Shown here: one piece after another, positions 9,602-61,052 of the stretch | Numbering within the stretch: the stretch's first letter is position 1 | How the letters are laid out: each line of letters starts with the position of its first letter | From: Sclerodactyla briareus | Lineage: Eukaryota > Echinodermata > Holothuroidea > Dendrochirotida > Sclerodactylidae | Assembly (NCBI GenBank): GCA_026419785.1 | Contig: JAODTK010002810.1 | Span: 1 to 64,000 of the forward strand | Direction: 5' to 3' | DNA length: 64,000 nucleotides | Position numbers and translations under genes: made by a program | The notes under the pieces: generated by a model | What the model was told of the DNA's origin: nothing | The model's input: the letters and a program-made list of their open reading frames with translations, nothing else | Database searches by the model: none

Positions 9602-9804
9602 ATTTTTGCAGCCGCCTACGTTTACTAAATGAAAAATAATTTACTAATATTCCCCGTTTATGTGGAAATCCAAATCGCATATGAGTGTCAAAATGTGTGT
9701 CATCAAAGAGCATAAGGCTCCTGTTCCTGACGTGAATTTTCACACTAAATGAGTCACGAATGACGCTATTCGTAGAGAGGTGACACCCCATTTCAAAGGG
9801 TTTT

Positions 9805-10755
9805 TAAATTCATAAGTCCGTTTGTCATAAGGCCTTTTATAATAGGCCTTTTGTTCATAAGGCCCGTTATTCATAATAATGGGTCCTAAAAGTTCCTTTA
9901 TTCATAGGTCCGAATTCATAATCACAACAGAATGTCCGATCTCCATAATAGTAAAAACGGTCCGTGATTCATAATATATAATAGTGAAAAGGTCCGTTAT
10001 TCATAATAGGAAAAGGTCCGTTATTCATAATAGGAAAAAGGGTCCGTTATTCATCATGAGAGAAAGGTCCCGATATTCATAATGGGAAAAAGAGTCCGAT
10101 ATTCATAATAGGAAAAAAGTCCGTTGTTCATAATAGTAAAAAAGGGTCGATATTCATGAATAGGAAAAAGGTCCGTTATTCATAATAGGAAAACAAACAC
10201 CGATCGGGGATCTTCCATGGGATCGCAGCTACCGAACGGTGCCGTTTTGGGGTTGGCATCCTTGCCGGACCTCCACAGGTATAATCATCTGCTTGGCAAG
10301 GTATATCATGAAAAGAAACTGATTTGATAACGGACTTTTCGCGAATTTGAATATCGAACCTCTTTTCTATTATGAATACGGGCCCTTTTTCACTATTATA
10401 ATACGGGCCTTTTTTGCGTTATGACTACGGACCTCTTTTGCTATATGAATAACGGTCCCCTTTCGATTTTATGAATTAACGACCCTTTCGCCATTAATGA
10501 ATAACGGACCTTTTTACTTTTATTGATTCGGCACTTGTTGCTCTGTTATGAATAACAGACCCTTTTGAAATTAAATGAAAACGTCCTTTTTGGTCATATG
10601 AATACGGACTTATGAACAAAGACCCCTTTTTATTATGAAGATCGGACCTTCTGGTCATTATGACTAACGACCCTTTTTCCGAAAATTTGGCACGTTATGA
10701 TACGGGCCTTATGAACAAAAGGAGGCCTTATGAATAAAAAGGCCTTCTGAACATC
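9805..10755. mobile_element. Compact foldback palindrome built of ~24 bp units
   Basis: The left half (about 9805-10200) is a run of imperfect copies of a ~24 bp unit around 'GGTCCGTTATTCATAATAGG'. The right half (about 10330-10750) is the same unit in reverse complement. A unique loop of about 130 bp separates them. The outermost parts also mirror each other: 'GGCCTTTTGTTCATAAGGCC' near 9845 against 'GGCCTTATGAACAAAAGG' near 10708. No protein is encoded. The layout is that of a small foldback transposon, and a transcript would fold into one long hairpin. Target duplications were not resolved. Confidence 0.7.
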
Positions 10756-10942
10756 GGGCGGTCCCCTGTAGAGAAACCAAGCTGTACGATCTTAGATGGT
10801 ATCAACCGCGGCCGCTACTCCCGCTACTCCAGGGATTTACACGACGTGAGATGGAGAACAGGTCTATGCACACTGCCCCACTGATATTGATACTTTGCAC
10901 TAACTAACAGAACGTCTTGACTATAAAAGGCAGGTGCGCCGA

Positions 10943-11093
10943 TCAGGCCTGGTAATTTGGCCCGGGCGTCCGCCCGTCCCGCCTCGCAGTTGAAAAACAG
11001 TTTCAGGCGGCGACGAATCGCCGCCCCATTTCGTTGATCAAAACTTGTGCCCGTCCTCTTAGCGTTCGCGATGCCCGGGCAGATTGCCCTGTA
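10943..11093. mobile_element. Possible ~150 bp inverted-repeat MITE
   Basis: A left end near 'GGTAATTTGGCCCGGGCGTC' is roughly mirrored by a right end near 'GATGCCCGGGCAGATTGCCC'. A GC hairpin ('GGCGGCGACGAATCGCCGCC') lies between them. The inverted ends are imperfect and no target duplication is clear, so the call is weak. Confidence 0.3.
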
Positions 11094-11754
11094 CCAGCAG
11101 TAAAAACTACTCGCACAATTGATTTCTTAGAAAAGAGAATCAAACATCTTCAATTCGAAATTCCCTTCAACGTCTGAACGTCCTGAAGCCGTACCGTGGC
11201 TGCGCCTACACTCTCTCTCTCTCCAGTCAACTTCGCGAGCTGTCGACTTAACGACCGTCCGGCCGTATCGTTTGTTCATAAAAAAAAAAAAAAAAATCCA
11301 AAAAACAACCGCAATGCATGTGACCATGCTGTATATCGAGGCAGAATACCTTGTACAACCTACACACTCTTCCAAATGTAACAAAGCGCAGCCCCACGAA
11401 ACAGTCGCTAGTCCTAAACCAGTTAAGCCTCTACGTAACTGTGATTATTTTAAATCAAGGAACCTCCAGCAAAAGCCTGCCAGGCACGATCTAAATTAGT
11501 TGTAACATCACCATTCGGATGCTAAACCTTCATTTTTTTGGTTTTATAAACACCTGCCTAATTAATCCACGTTTTGTTCATATTTTCCCTCTGAAAAAAC
11601 AATATTGTAGGGCCTAAGCAAATTAATATTGCGGTCTCGCTGATCGAACGAATCGGTAAATCCACTCAATCATAGAGGTCATTGAAAATTTCTATTGGAA
11701 GTTAAGTGCGTGCGAGAGGTTCGTTGCCGTTCGGTCTGTAGACGGTTTCAAGAC
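11094..11754. other. Intergenic, no gene seen
   Basis: Holds a short CT run (near 11210-11222) and an A run (11280-11296). The overlapping short frames on both strands have no recognisable protein features. Confidence 0.5.
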
Positions 11755-12015
11755 GTTTCGCCCCCATTCCATTTCGCCCCATTACCTTCGCCCCTTTCAC
11801 TACAAGTTCGCCCATATGCAAAGTTCGCGCCAAACACATTCTTCATTACAGTTCGCGCCCAACACTACGAGTTCGCACCCCTACAGATCGCCCCTAACGA
11901 GGTCGCCCCCATAGCAAGTTCGCCCCACCCCAGTCGCGCCCCCATCACAAGTTCGCCCACTACATTTTCGTCCCATTGTAGTTCGCGCCCCACTCAGTTT
12001 TGCCCCATTTGGAGT
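11755..12015 (-). repeat. Degenerate ~17 bp minisatellite arm, inverted relative to the 15.1-16.8 kb array
   Basis: About 15 imperfect units with the core 'AGTTCGCCCC' at a spacing near 17 bp. This is the reverse complement of the 'GGGGCGAACT' core of the large array 3 kb downstream. The inner flanks of the two arrays also look related ('GCCCCATTTGGAGTGTGGC' here against 'GCCCCATTACGAGTGGCAC' on the other arm's minus strand). A 116-codon frame spans the array, but it is just the translated repeat. Confidence 0.7.
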
Positions 12016-13797
12016 GTGGCGGGCCTGGTATCTCCACACTCTTGAAAAAATTCCTCGTAGGATGGTACTTAGAGGATCATTGGGGCTTCAAGGAAATCGT
12101 TCAAATCTGATTAGGGTTCAAATATCAGGTTGGGTCAGTGTTCGGGCATTCATCTCGCTCTTTCATAATCCGGGCCTCAGGTAAAAATATGTCCCCAAAA
12201 GGTTTGTTTGAAAAATATTCAAAACAATGCATAACTGCATAAAGGTAAAATTGGGAGTCCCTAAAACCCCTAGGACAGTAGGCCTGGTGCGATGCCCGCT
12301 GCCAATCCTGAAGAAAACTCGCGCGCGGCAGTCACAGTAATAGCCAATACGGAAAATGTCCGTGTCGGTAATTCATCTTCGACCTCGAATATTAGTTGGG
12401 ATAAAAGGATATTCCTCGTGGTTGTGACTGGGTGATTGAGGGGTCGTTCTGTATTTGTTGCAATTGATTTAAAGGGTTTGTCGTACTCTACCCCGATGAC
12501 GGCCCGTGTTATAAGCTAGAGAGCATGAGTCGCTGTATCAAGGATCAACTTCGAATGTTTTCAGATAGACGGGCGAGGAGCACTCGAAAAAGGGGGAAAA
12601 ACGTGGGTCAGGGCGGGAAGCAAGATACGTTTGATTCGATCACTGAGAAAGGTCCAAGATCCGAAATTAACAACACTAGATTAGTGCAAAATGTATATGC
12701 CTGTATATGGTTGTACAAGTAGTTGCGATATATATATGAGTAAAGTCGAAGCAGGGTGATGGCGGATATTACTTAACATCCACGAGGAAAAAAATATTTT
12801 TATGATTTACAGTGTGTGCATTTACAAAACTACGTGCGGACATGTCAAATGATTTTTGTTATGGGCCCAACTTAAAAGTAAGTATGGGGGCGCCAAAGCG
12901 ATGACCCTTTGGCTAGCCTAAATCCCTTTTTTTTCAATTGTAGTCGCTTTCATATGGGGAATACAATGCCAGTACAGTCTTATACTGGAATAAACAAAAG
13001 GCCGTCCAGTTAATTTGCCGGGATTACTGATTATAGTAAAGTTCTGCACATTTGAGCTTTGTCAGTATTAGGGAGCTTAGATCACGATCGGCGATGGCAT
13101 CGACGCCCCTTTGACTAATGTTTTTCCACGTTGTAGACCAGGAAGCCGTCCCGCAGTGCGGGCGCTTTGATTTACGACTGTGTCAAGTGCTGGTTGCGTA
13201 AATGCTAAGTGTCGCGCGGGTTGAGTATGACCGTGAACATTCCCGAATCCATTTGTGGAATGCGACATCAACGCCGCATTAAGTGGTTATTCTGCCAACG
13301 TGGTGCTCGTTCTATTCTATGTGGAATAATTTGCCCCCGTGGAACTCAGCTCCATCTATGCATCGAAAAGCCTTCTGGCGGATAACGGCGCTAATAAGTT
13401 TTCATATTATGATCATTATTTATTATGCATACAAGCGCACTTTCACCCAGCTAGGCAGTCTGACTTTTTTTGCACTCTTTTTCAAAACCATATTCGCCAG
13501 AAATTCGTTAAGTCGGGAGGGAGGGGGGACGGAAGTAACTGTTTGCTACTTAATCAGTGACACAACTTCACACGTCAGCAGCAAAACAACAACCGCTACA
13601 CGATAATATTATCGATCCTATGGCATTCCCGACTCGTTGCCTGTTTACACCCAGTATTATGCGCCACTTAACCAAAACTCCTGTATTGTTCACGGTACCG
13701 AAAAACTCACTTGCGGGAGTTTGTTGTGGAATGGCTCTCCCATTACTTACAGTCCGATATCCAATACGTGAATAATTGCATTCTGTTAGTGCAACAC
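12016..13797. other. Spacer between minisatellite arms, no identified gene
   Basis: Several short frames exist (for example 13283-13606 +, 107 codons), but none has recognisable domains or coding-like composition. The sequence is of mixed composition with no transposon ends seen. Confidence 0.45.
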
Positions 13798-13891
13798 CTC
13801 CAACAATTAGCACAATGATTGTGGTATGATTCCCAACAGGGTTGGCGCCACAGGCATACATCCCATCACTACACAAGAACACTTGGCCCAA
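13798..13891 (-). CDS. Immunoglobulin-like exon fragment (F-G strands)
   Basis: The minus strand reads 'SDGMYACGANPVGN' followed by a run of alternating hydrophobic residues ending in Gly-Gly. This is the usual D-x-G-x-Y-x-C pattern of an Ig-domain F strand plus a G strand. A donor-like 'GAG|GTGTTG' follows directly at 13797. A second, weaker F-strand-like segment ('LNEARD', then 'GKYV') lies 60-90 bp upstream at 13930-13990, interrupted by a stop and an oligo-C tract, so the exon is degraded or is only the end of a decayed domain. No Trp or first Cys was found in the adjoining sequence. It may belong with the Ig-like scrap at 17784-17939 on the same strand, which would place the large minisatellite in an intron; that link is inference. 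Confidence 0.35.
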
Positions 13892-15030
13892 TCAGTTTTC
13901 CATTCCAAATATGGGGGGGGGGGCAGGGTTATGGCAGTAGGCAGTACATACTTTCCCTCGGAATCTCAGTCTCTAGCTTCATTTAGGGTCATCACTGGAA
14001 AAGTGTTAGTGCTGCACTGTTATTAGGTGGTGGAAAAGTACTGGTATTTAGGAATTGCATGAACACTGATGTAAAACACTTGAGGTATTTTAATACTTCT
14101 GCGATATGCCCATACTTTCAGCATGCCTATACCAAACGTGCTGGACATGTAACACTATCGACTATGAGGCCCCTACTTCTAGCAATAAAAACGCAGTTAC
14201 GTTTAGCCAACTTGACGCGTTCAGGGGTTTAAGCGTTTTTCATGAAGTAATGGCTAAATAACGTTTAGTTCTTATACACTGATTTTAGAGTGTTAAGTCT
14301 GGTGTTGGTGTCGGGACCCGTTGGTGTCGCTTGTTTGGTGTGGGCTCATAGTTCCGCATGGTGTGGAGTTGCCTAGTGGTGCCGGTGTCGGACGCAACAC
14401 ACCCATCATACAATATACTTTTTCTTAGTGATGTTGTAGTTAAGTATTATTCATCAACCCCCTGATTGTGGTTTACTCTGTTATCGCAATTACCTACACA
14501 ATCTACTTTGACTTAGGCCTATCGCCTAGGCATATCGCGCTAACTTCTGGTAAAAATTTCATCTGACTTGTTCAGCTAGTTGATCGAATAAAAACTTATA
14601 TCGCCTTCCCTGACCAACGTTTTCTCCCTTTTGTTACCCTGAGTATCCTCGCCCGTCTATCGGTTATAAACATTACGGAGTTGATTCCTCAATACTTCGG
14701 CTCTGCGCGTAGCTATAAACAAGGGCTACGGGGATTAACGTTCAAGACTCCTTTAGAAGTTAATAGCCAAAAAACCCAATATCCCCCTCAATCATCTAGT
14801 TCCACCTCCTAAACCCATACCATCCTACTCCTGATCCCAACTATCTGCTCTCGGGTCTGCCATTATATATTTTCATGACACCGACGCGTTTTCGTTACAA
14901 CACTCATATTGACTGTGTCACCGTGCGACTCTCAATTTCTCCAATTCAGGGTCCCCGGCCATACTTAATAACGCTCCAATTAATACCCAGCTAATGTGAC
15001 TGCCACCATAAGCCACCCAGCCAGTGCCAC
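13892..15030. other. Spacer, no gene seen; GGTGTCG-rich patch
   Basis: A loose 'GGTGT(C/T)G' repeat patch occupies about 14295-14400, and a G run lies near 13913-13923. No other structure was recognised. Confidence 0.45.
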
Positions 15031-15122
15031 TCGTAATGGGGCGAAGTTGTAGTGTAGGGAATATGAATTGGGGGGGGGCGAATTTGTAGTTGGTGGCGAA
15101 CTTTGTGGGGCTAAAAGTGTGT
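15031..15122 (+). repeat. Degenerate border units of the 17 bp array
   Basis: Five or so variant units with the core 'GGGGCGAA' followed by 'GTTGTAGTG'-type ends precede the perfect array. They resemble the degenerate arm at 11755-12015 more than they resemble the homogeneous units. They are probably the ancestral unit type. Confidence 0.65.
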
Positions 15123-16803
15123 GGGGCGAACTCGCATATGGGGCGAACTCGCATATGGGGCGAACTCGCATATGGGGCGAACTCGCATATGGGGCGAACT
15201 CGCATATGGGGCGAACTCGCATATGGGGCGAACTCGCATATGGGGCGAACTCGCATATGGGGCGAACTCGCATATGGGGCGAACTCGCATATGGGGCGAA
15301 CTCGCATATGGGGCGAACTCGCATATGGGGCGAACTCGCATATGGGGCGAACTCGCATATGGGGCGAACTCGCATATGGGGCGAACTCGCATATGGGGCG
15401 AACTCGCATATGGGGCGAACTCGCATATGGGGCGAACTCGCATATGGGGCGAACTCGCATATGGGGCGAACTCGCATATGGGGCGAACTCGCATATGGGG
15501 CGAACTCGCATATGGGGCGAACTCGCATATGGGGCGAACTCGCATATGGGGCGAACTCGCATATGGGGCGAACTCGCATATGGGGCGAACTCGCATATGG
15601 GGCGAACTCGCATATGGGGCGAACTCGCATATGGGGCGAACTCGCATATGGGGCGAACTCGCATATGGGGCGAACTCGCATATGGGGCGAACTCGCATAT
15701 GGGGCGAACTCGCATATGGGGCGAACTCGCATATGGGGCGAACTCGCATATGGGGCGAACTCGCATATGGGGCGAACTCGCATATGGGGCGAACTCGCAT
15801 ATGGGGCGAACTCGCATATGGGGCGAACTCGCATATGGGGCGAACTCGCATATGGGGCGAACTCGCATATGGGGCGAACTCGCATATGGGGCGAACTCGC
15901 ATATGGGGCGAACTCGCATATGGGGCGAACTCGCATATGGGGCGAACTCGCATATGGGGCGAACTCGCATATGGGGCGAACTCGCATATGGGGCGAACTC
16001 GCATATGGGGCGAACTCGCATATGGGGCGAACTCGCATATGGGGCGAACTCGCATATGGGGCGAACTCGCATATGGGGCGAACTCGCATATGGGGCGAAC
16101 TCGCATATGGGGCGAACTCGCATATGGGGCGAACTCGCATATGGGGCGAACTCGCATATGGGGCGAACTCGCATATGGGGCGAACTCGCATATGGGGCGA
16201 ACTCGCATATGGGGCGAACTCGCATATGGGGCGAACTCGCATATGGGGCGAACTCGCATATGGGGCGAACTCGCATATGGGGCGAACTCGCATATGGGGC
16301 GAACTCGCATATGGGGCGAACTCGCATATGGGGCGAACTCGCATATGGGGCGAACTCGCATATGGGGCGAACTCGCATATGGGGCGAACTCGCATATGGG
16401 GCGAACTCGCATATGGGGCGAACTCGCATATGGGGCGAACTCGCATATGGGGCGAACTCGCATATGGGGCGAACTCGCATATGGGGCGAACTCGCATATG
16501 GGGCGAACTCGCATATGGGGCGAACTCGCATATGGGGCGAACTCGCATATGGGGCGAACTCGCATATGGGGCGAACTCGCATATGGGGCGAACTCGCATA
16601 TGGGGCGAACTCGCATATGGGGCGAACTCGCATATGGGGCGAACTCGCATATGGGGCGAACTCGCATATGGGGCGAACTCGCATATGGGGCGAACTCGCA
16701 TATGGGGCGAACTCGCATATGGGGCGAACTCGCATATGGGGCGAACTCGCATATGGGGCGAACTCGCATATGGGGCGAACTCGCATATGGGGCGAACTCG
16801 CAT
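15123..16803 (+). repeat. 17 bp minisatellite, 98.9 perfect copies
   Basis: The unit GGGGCGAACTCGCATAT repeats head to tail without any difference that I could see: 98 full units plus 15 bases of the next. The unit contains the palindrome CATATG and no stop codon in any frame of either strand. Because 17 is not a multiple of three, all three frames of one strand read the same 17-residue peptide in rotation: 'GELAYGANSHMGRTRIW' on plus, 'SSPHMRVRPICEFAPYA' on minus. The long frames of 560-680 codons here (both strands, 14918-16966) are by-products of this and are not treated as genes. Perfect identity means recent expansion, strong homogenisation, or an assembly collapse or expansion artefact. 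Confidence 0.97.
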
Positions 16804-17783
16804 TGCCAACACATCGTTTAAGTGCAGGACATGGGAGAAACACTGTTACTATGGGTACTACATTCCAGACCGTATTAACCAGCAATGTGACTGCATGTTG
16901 GTACTGGGTATTATGATGAGCAACAAGTGATTCCGTTGACATTCCACAAAACTGGCACAGGTACAAAGTCTATTATGACCATGTGCTCTTGTAGCAATCA
17001 CTGTAAAATAACGTACTGAACAACTGCAATCTGTTTTTTTTTTTCAAATACCATTACATGGTGGAACAACTAACAAGACTGTAGACTGGTTATATTAATC
17101 ATTTTCATCAAAGTCTGAAGCACATTATCATTCACGAGGTGTCTTCAGACAGTGGATTTTAGACTTTAGGCTGAACTGGGCTCATGTAACAAAGTGGTAA
17201 CAAATTCAACAGCATAGTCCAACCCTCTGGCGATGGTATTCACGATTTCTTTCTTTCTTCAAGGGATACCATTAGTTATTATGTAGATGTGGCTTCAATT
17301 GCTTCCCGGTAAACACTATCAAATGTTTTTGGAACCAACACGAGGTATGCACTCTTTCTGGGATATTTCAGCTCTTCAATTCGAGGTGTGGTGGATCTAC
17401 CGTTGCGGAGCCCTTTCTAGTTCCTACTGATGGATTCGTCGATATGGGGGATGGGAATACTGTTGCTGGAGCTGGTTGTTATATAGGTTGAGGCTAGTGG
17501 CTCGGACAGTGTTATTCTAGGTAGGTTGAGGGCAGAGTAAGGTTTCTCGGTAGCGGAATGGAAAATGAAGGTTTCGGCAGAGCAGTATTCATTGTTCCCT
17601 CCCACCACATGGCCCTCTTAAAAAAAAAAAAAATCATTTTATCAAATATGTCAATGATATTTATGTACAAATATGACAACACCTAAAGTAGATATACTTT
17701 TTTTTTCCAATGTGGTTCTTACTGTGAAAACGATCTAACCATTTAACAAACCAAAAAATGACAGAAAGACCCCGCAATCCCAT
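16804..17783. other. Intergenic, no certain gene
   Basis: Unique-looking sequence after the array. A minus-strand frame continues to 16966 upstream of the array but shows no clear domain. An A run lies near 17621-17632. Confidence 0.4.
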
Positions 17784-22043: not shown

Positions 22044-22182
22044 GAATAATAATAATTAATATATTAATAATAATAATAATAATAATAAAATAATAATATA
22101 ATATAATAAAATAATAATAATATAATAATAATAATAATAATAATTAATAATAATAAAATAATACATTAATAATAATAATAGC
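22044..22182 (+). repeat. (TAA)n microsatellite, LINE 3' tail
   Basis: Imperfect TAA/AAT repeat of about 140 bp directly after the LINE C-terminus. It is probably the expanded 3' tail of that element. Confidence 0.85.
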
Positions 22183-48116: not shown

Positions 48117-48169
48117 GCACGAGATCAAAAATAAATAAAAAATAATAATAATAATAAAATAATAATAAT

Positions 48170-48201
<32 letters not shown>

Positions 48202-49720
48202 TAATAATAATAATAATAAATACAACTCACGAACTGACGAAGAACAACATTTTGAAGCGCTTCACGAATTATAATTCAGTAAAGGCCTGATTAAGAGATA
48301 AGGCTTCAGTGGCGACCTAAAAAGAGGGACAGTTGCATAATTTCGGTTAGACAGGGGGAGACAATTCCATTAATGTGAAGCAACTTTACTAAACGACCAG
48401 TCATCATACGATTTGGTACGGGTAGTTGGGACAATAAGGAGATTTTTTAGCAAACTACGGAGACGTCTTAACGGATAGTAGAGACAAAGCATCCCTCTGA
48501 TGTAAAGCCGGGAGCCATTGCTAAGCCGGCATGAAACACATTGGGAGAACTAAACGTAACTTTCTGCTCAACAGGCAGCCAGTGGAGTTGTCGCAGCAAA
48601 GAGCTCATGTTGGAACGAATGGACATGGCAGGTTAATCGGTTATAATCCTAGCCGATAAAATCTGTATGCGCTGCAGTTTCTTTATTTCAGTTTGCGGCA
48701 GTCCACACAGAAGACAATTGCAATAATCAATTTTAGAATAATAAAAAGCATGTACCAGCTGCTCAATTGACTTTGAACTAAGATAAGGACGAATTTTACC
48801 GATGGAGCGCAGATGATAGCCTAATTAGTTTTTCCATCGATGTAGCGTATATATCGACTACAATTCCAAGGTTCTTCGCAGAGGAGAAAGTGGTGTGCCG
48901 AGTGACCTCTGTCTTACCAACCTGTATTGGCATTAAGTTAACTCTACTTGTCATGTTTTTCGATCGCATCAACATGACGATGGTTTTATCTCATTTAGTT
49001 ATTAAGTCTGTTACTACATACATTCAACTCAACTGATGTGTTTGGAGGGGAGTGGCGTTTGGACAGAAACGAGGACAATATCTTCTCGATAGTTATAATC
49101 TACAAATCATTTGTGTAATGTGTAGCCATCATCGTACTGATGTTTCTCAATCCCGTGTTTCCCCTGATAATATTGCAACTACCATACGTGTACATATTGA
49201 ACAACACTGGGCTTAAAACAGAACCCTGGGGTACACCATGACTCAATTAATACGGCAATGATTTATCATACTGATTTTAAAATTTAAACACATTATGCGT
49301 TAGAATTTATTTATTGAACCAATTCAACGCAACTCCAGGAATACCATAAACCTGCGCTATAGTTTGTTGATTAGGATACCATAGTCGATGATATCAAACG
49401 CTGCGGACAATCAAGAAGACAAATGAGCGAGTTCATTGTCATCGGATAGCAGACAGAGTTTGTTTTTGCACATGAATCAGAGCAGTTCCTGTACTATGAT
49501 GAGCCCTCTATTCTGATTGGAACTTCTCGAGGAAGATCATGTTCGTTCAGATATTCTTGGAGTCGGTGGAGTCGGACCTCTACAATTCTTTCAATACTTT
49601 CGAGATAAATTGAAGTGTCGAGGGTGGAGAGAAAAATAGTGAATATTTTCTCACTTTGCAAAAGCAGTAGACGACGCGGAGGCATTATGAAAGTGGAAGG
49701 AGGGCTATCATTGATGCTCC
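48117..49720 (-). mobile_element. CR1/L2-type LINE 3' part with (TAA)n tail
   Basis: Minus-strand blocks in order: 'RLQEYLNEHDLP' (near 49560), the region of the LDLSAAFD motif in degraded form (near 49420), a perfect 'HGVPQGSVLSPVLFNMYTY' (49185-49242), and 'SSLLRQLHWLPVEQKVTF' (near 48560-48610). The element ends in an imperfect (TAA)n tract at 48130-48222. RT motif 4 is intact, but the YADD motif was not found and many stops intervene. It is dead and lacks its 5' part. Confidence 0.85.

Positions 49721-61002: not shown

Positions 61003-61052
<50 letters not shown>

Follow-up and report, generated by a model that had tools for sequence, protein, structure and literature searches.

The window, that is, the whole stretch of 64,000 nucleotides of Sclerodactyla briareus DNA that was analysed, contains a tandem array of a 17-bp unit at the right-hand end of a foldback-like element, B, which is nested in a further repeat, A. 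The features of the locus are the following:

10768–11743, forward strand: left arm of the host repeat A, adjoining the start of B
~11744–16803, forward strand: foldback-like element B, with its left terminus GGTTTCAAGACGTTTCGCCCC present and its right terminus missing
11756–12016, reverse strand: left TIR array, made of decayed units of the TTCGCCCC type that run opposite to those of the right array
12427–12806, forward strand: inner TIR domain, an inverted match to 14405–14800 at 64–65% identity
13965–15121, forward strand: right half of B ahead of the array, ~69–84% identical to relatives
14405–14800, reverse strand: inner TIR domain, the partner of 12427–12806
15037–15121, forward strand: the right TIR array's inner, decayed units, of which GGGGCTAAAAGTGTG is the last
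15122–16803, forward strand: 98.94 perfect copies of TGGGGCGAACTCGCATA, a unit of B's right TIR array in amplified form
16804–17230, forward strand: right arm of the host repeat A, the core being missing ahead of it

The preliminary description placed a perfect array of about 99 copies at 15123–16803. TRF reports a period of 17, 98.9 copies, 100% match and no indels (score 3364), and an exact-period script finds a maximal periodic run of 1682 bp, or 98.94 copies, without mismatch or indel. Both bear out the array and move only its start, by one base, to 15122. The decayed relatives said to lie beside it are present at 15037–15121 and, in inverted orientation, at 11771–11989. With one mismatch allowed, GGGGCGAACT is matched 113 times in the window, where shuffled sequences would lead one to expect 2.5 matches.

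The exact dimer of the unit has 97 overlapping matches in the 319.5-Mb assembly, all of them in this array, so that neither the many sites nor the very large scale of a satellite was found. A genome search for related pairs spaced by 16 or 17 bases yielded few other places, none with a long array. A genome-wide satellite is ruled out, as the assembly contains no second array of the 17-bp unit. Among the listed matches to the flanks of the array, all at most 87% identical, no allelic copy of the locus was seen; apart from the locus itself, the top-scoring matches reach 82% and 84% for the two flanks. The window has no Rfam match at gathering thresholds, and a tRNA-derived repeat was rejected after ARAGORN (bacterial code) gave no match. 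A repeat search within 14500–17500 found no inverted repeats; the inverted partner sits further left.

B was delimited from a comparison of the window with 38 locus sequences, of which 36 lie elsewhere and two belong to the window itself, and from four longer regions. A search with the left flank of the array (14700–15160), with every one of the 24 first-look candidates scored, returned 62 matches, namely one self-match, 31 inside the array and 30 off contig C2127. These 30, at 69–87% identity on 18 contigs beyond that of the window, show B to be interspersed. Its ends in the window carry the mutually inverted TTCGCCCC and GGGGCGAA arrays together with the inner inverted domain (380 bp at 64%). 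Copies on contigs C2151 and C3065 have the same plan, with inverted arrays at both ends and long TIRs. These measure 277 bp at 75% identity on C2151; on C3065 they span 263 bp at 70%, and an inner stretch adds 334 bp at 65%. In all three copies both TIRs contain short tandem units, mostly of 15–17 bp, and the termini of the clearest copies read GGAAACAGGACGTTTCGCCCC or GGTTGCAAGACGTTTCGCCCC. Runs of ~19–25 C are also found inside the TIR arrays of B on C2151 (locus L051, 2519–2543) and C3147 (locus L068).

Target duplications were judged in six copies in which both ends could be read, with the termini placed by eye. Perfect 8-bp duplications (8/8 bases) flank the copies on C2151 (GGTGTTTT) and C2467 (GTCCTCCT), and 7/8 bases match on C2402; the copies on C3065, C932 and C2966 have no clear duplication. 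In the window the second duplication is missing along with the right end. In none of the three copies analysed is the longest open reading frame in the body of B as long as the longest found in 30 shuffles, and ten ORF pieces from three copies, taken from an assembly that looks rich in indels, have no Pfam match at E 0.1. These pieces gave no transposase domain by which B could be placed in Mutator, P, hAT, Merlin or another named superfamily. B is a foldback-like, apparently non-autonomous and non-coding DNA transposon, and its TIR units, mostly of 15–17 bp, are, by analogy with Galileo, probably transposase-binding repeats.

Short tandem units within the inverted repeats, as in B, are found in the sea urchin and Drosophila FB elements. 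The closest described case found is Tetris of Drosophila virilis with its TIR-220 repeats, which PMC4079207 presents, beside the foldback elements of sea urchin and Drosophila (FB), as a non-autonomous foldback-like element with variable tandem repeats in its TIRs, target duplications of 8–10 bp and internal repeats that were multiplied inside the element to as many as 66 copies. By this description Tetris resembles B in its foldback-like build, the tandem repeats of its TIRs, the size of its target duplications and amplification inside the element. It differs in the size of the unit (~220 bp against 17 bp) and in forming satellite-like arrays, as opposed to the one site here. Galileo, of the P superfamily, is likewise described in PMC3688188 as having long TIRs with tandem repeats, which hold binding sites for the THAP domain of its transposase; no transposase was found for B. 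Tm1, a Mutator/Foldback element of root-knot nematodes (PMC3169594), resembles B in having composite TIRs of variable length like those of Foldback elements. It differs in its 9-bp target duplications, as opposed to 8 bp here, and in its known transposase.

The relatives of B point to the source of the amplified unit. Their TIR arrays have mostly 5–16 units with a match of ~64–88% by TRF, and 139 units of 13–20 bp (108 of them of 15–17 bp) were taken from 18 array regions at 17 loci, pooling both ends of the element and dropping other splits. GCATA occurs in 11 of these 139 units, at ten loci, and the amplified type of unit, GGGGCGAACTYGCATA, is present in one or two copies per relative array. 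The exact 17-base word GCGAACTTGCATATGGG stands at ten places in the genome, none of them in a long array according to TRF of the loci. On C3147 (L068) the exact 16-mer GGGGCGAACTCGCATA occurs once, preceded by a unit ending in AAAGTGTG (plus one base), and the window has the matching order, with GGGGCTAAAAGTGTG, a unit of the same kind, followed by the array. A AAAGTGTG-type unit clearly precedes the seed at three of the ten loci (L014, L021 and L068); at the other seven the preceding unit is different or decayed. After the seed, C3147 continues with ~8 more units and the terminus CGTCCTGTTTCC, none of which is found in the window. The array is thus likely to be one small TIR repeat of B's family, multiplied at a single site by slippage or repair.

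The amplified unit contains GCGA-AC-TCGC and CATATG. Five copies of it, folded as single-stranded DNA, reach -16.4 and -14.1 kcal/mol on the two strands, as compared to -6.8 and -4.3 kcal/mol for five copies of its T variant and 0 to -2.6 kcal/mol for four other common units. Among 177 family units, two fold as strongly when the strands are summed and three on either strand alone. Against shuffles of its own composition the fold is ordinary, as 321 of 1000 are equally strong. The comparison, which was made after the fact, says only that the amplified unit is fold-prone among family units that mostly are not. Hairpin strength as the cause of the amplification was set aside, being suggestive within the family and ordinary against the shuffles.

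The right edge of the array coincides with a loss of sequence. B is nested in repeat A, the arms of which lie on both sides in order and in the same direction. Of the 41 matches to the right flank, which belongs to A, 40 lie elsewhere, a figure to be read as at least 40, as 40 of 145 candidates were scored; many matches to the right arm start only at about query position 126. In eight relatives of A a core of ~525–610 bp stands at the place of B, and this core is missing in the window, which retains the left arm to about GTAGAC and the right arm from about TGCCA. In a ninth relative, at locus L035, the core is gone without B being there. The last array unit, CTCGCAT, runs into TGCCAACACATCG, and GCAT is present at the equivalent place of the junction in seven of eight aligned relatives of A (TCGCAT in two of eight). 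This side lacks about eight outer TIR units and the terminus, along with the second target duplication and A's core, and the lost TIR end, target duplication and core form one stretch that starts at the array. The pattern is that of a deletion whose ends were joined through microhomology, the amplification lying at its border; the four shared bases can be a chance match. Further left, 9778–10767 is occupied by element C, which is nearly one inverted repeat and contains tandem units of 24–26 bp (ATAATAGGAAAAAGGTCCGTTATTC) that point opposite ways in its two halves. It seems to be inserted in A, the left arm of which resumes at 10768, and is possibly a second foldback-like family.

It is probable that one TIR unit of B was amplified by slippage or repair. 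In the specific form that is tentatively put forward, and which may well not be the correct one, a single break-repair event would have turned one hairpin-capable foldback TIR unit into ~99 identical copies and deleted the end of the transposon. A break or stalled fork would arise in the right TIR array of B, slippage-prone repair synthesis would copy one 17-bp unit over and over, and the synthesis would end by microhomology joining into A with the TIR end being deleted. As the copies would be products of repeated copying during repair, they would be identical from the outset. The relatives of B with an unamplified unit, the ten places of exact GCGAACTTGCATATGGG and the context of the seed on C3147 support the amplification of a TIR unit. 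To treat the deletion and the amplification as one event is an inference, however, as the two are separable and L035, without the core of A, lacks B; the perfection of the array within an indel-rich assembly is also suspicious. A probably recent expansion next to decayed relatives, one of the two readings that the preliminary description had offered, is supported by these data. The gene conversion it gave as the other choice is not required, as the relatives have the unit once or twice and the window has it multiplied.

Gradual growth of a minisatellite through unequal crossing-over or gene conversion in the TIR array, with an unrelated deletion, is rather improbable as an account of the locus. 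It overlaps with amplification by slippage or repair in the broad sense, from which it differs in tempo. In favor of slow growth, the authors of PMC4079207 describe a pair of Tetris alleles with a difference of one TIR-220 repeat and regard unequal crossing-over as a possible cause. Also in line with it, L035 shows the loss of the core of A with no B at that place. Against it, stepwise growth of an array usually leaves variant units, of which there are none among the 99, and the end of the array is the start of the deletion.

The artefact that the preliminary description had allowed for is a serious caveat, and it is reinforced by frame changes in conserved genes of the assembly. The genome has conserved actin, HSP70 and histone exons, and nine frame changes were found by our own count in ~750 aligned codons of three actin loci and one histone H3 locus (one in L053, two in L054, three each in L055 and L071), with conserved residues on both sides of each change. 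The actin loci were the three returned of 16 matches and the H3 locus the first of four histone matches; the other three histone matches and three HSP70 loci, one of which has a probable frame change, were left out of the count. Some of the exons counted, among them two of L055, are intact, and it is possible that the frame-changed loci are pseudogenes. Only four histone-fold matches are listed in 319 Mb, and the H3 and actin exons are split among frames. This rate predicts ~7 indels over the 1682 bp, where none is seen; the chance of none is ~0.001. TRF of 59 sources, 255.8 kb in all, gives 52 rows with a minimum of 60 bp and four copies, counting overlapping periods and some loci that overlap, and this array alone among them has a 100% match.

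According to the artefact explanation, consensus building or gap filling over a break between the right TIR of B and the right arm of A produced the array or at least made it so long and so perfect, and the true sequence would have ordinary outer TIR units, a terminus and the core of A. This would account for the loss of the TIR end and of the core and for the short join, as well as for the lack of the predicted indels and the single perfect TRF row. Nevertheless, it seems unlikely. Other tandem arrays are not homogenised, with a match of 64–85% in the 39 further rows listed out of 52 and up to 92–93% for an AAT repeat in the window, which disfavours a general consensus effect, although a 49-bp CA run is perfect. 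These simple repeats are imperfect AAT microsatellites and the one CA run, at 22045–22180, 48134–48219 and 61003–61051. In addition, a k-mer loop of a single unit would, by inference, need words of at most ~11 bases, as neighbouring units differ, and the arms of A are ordered and in the same direction on both sides. Systematic errors would repeat in each unit and leave the period perfect. The perfection of the array reflects either very recent amplification or a partly assembly-made sequence, and as the assembly looks indel-rich, copy number and perfection call for spanning reads.

The absence of stops in all six frames of repeated TGGGGCGAACTCGCATA, which the preliminary description regarded as significant, is confirmed for the array but carries no such meaning. 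Since 17 is not a multiple of 3, a single cyclic peptide of 17 residues, WGELAYGANSHMGRTRI, is read in all three forward frames and a different one, YASSPHMRVRPICEFAP, in all three reverse frames; the claim of one peptide in every frame holds within each strand and fails across strands, two peptides being encoded in all. Six stop-free frames occur by chance in 12% of random 17-mers (44% GC) and in 22% of shuffles of the unit, and 49 of the 139 TIR units of the relatives would have the same property if repeated. The other 90 would not, and stop-freedom is therefore not conserved and hinges on which unit was amplified. Two ORFs were searched against Pfam. The forward ORF has one match above the cut-off, PATR (E 3.9e-10), a sum over repeats in which no single stretch passes, and one below it, T3SS_SCTL (E 0.024); the reverse ORF has none. 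It is therefore very improbable that selection shaped the array as a coding or regulatory repeat and made it free of stops by design, in spite of its six open frames and of ORFs of up to 682 amino acids crossing it, and a coding function is rejected on the chance frequency of stop-free units, the family units and the Pfam results. The open frames are incidental and no coding device, and neither transcription nor translation of the array is needed to explain it.

Perfect arrays in indel-rich assemblies call for proof at the level of reads. What is notable in this array is the small unit, the single site and the visibility of the unamplified and amplified states in one genome. A striking repeat can be tied to one precisely defined unit within the end of a transposon as its source, which bears on the origin of minisatellites and satellites. 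If the single-event reading is true, the locus would represent a satellite at the first step of its birth, with the unamplified state kept in the relatives of the element.
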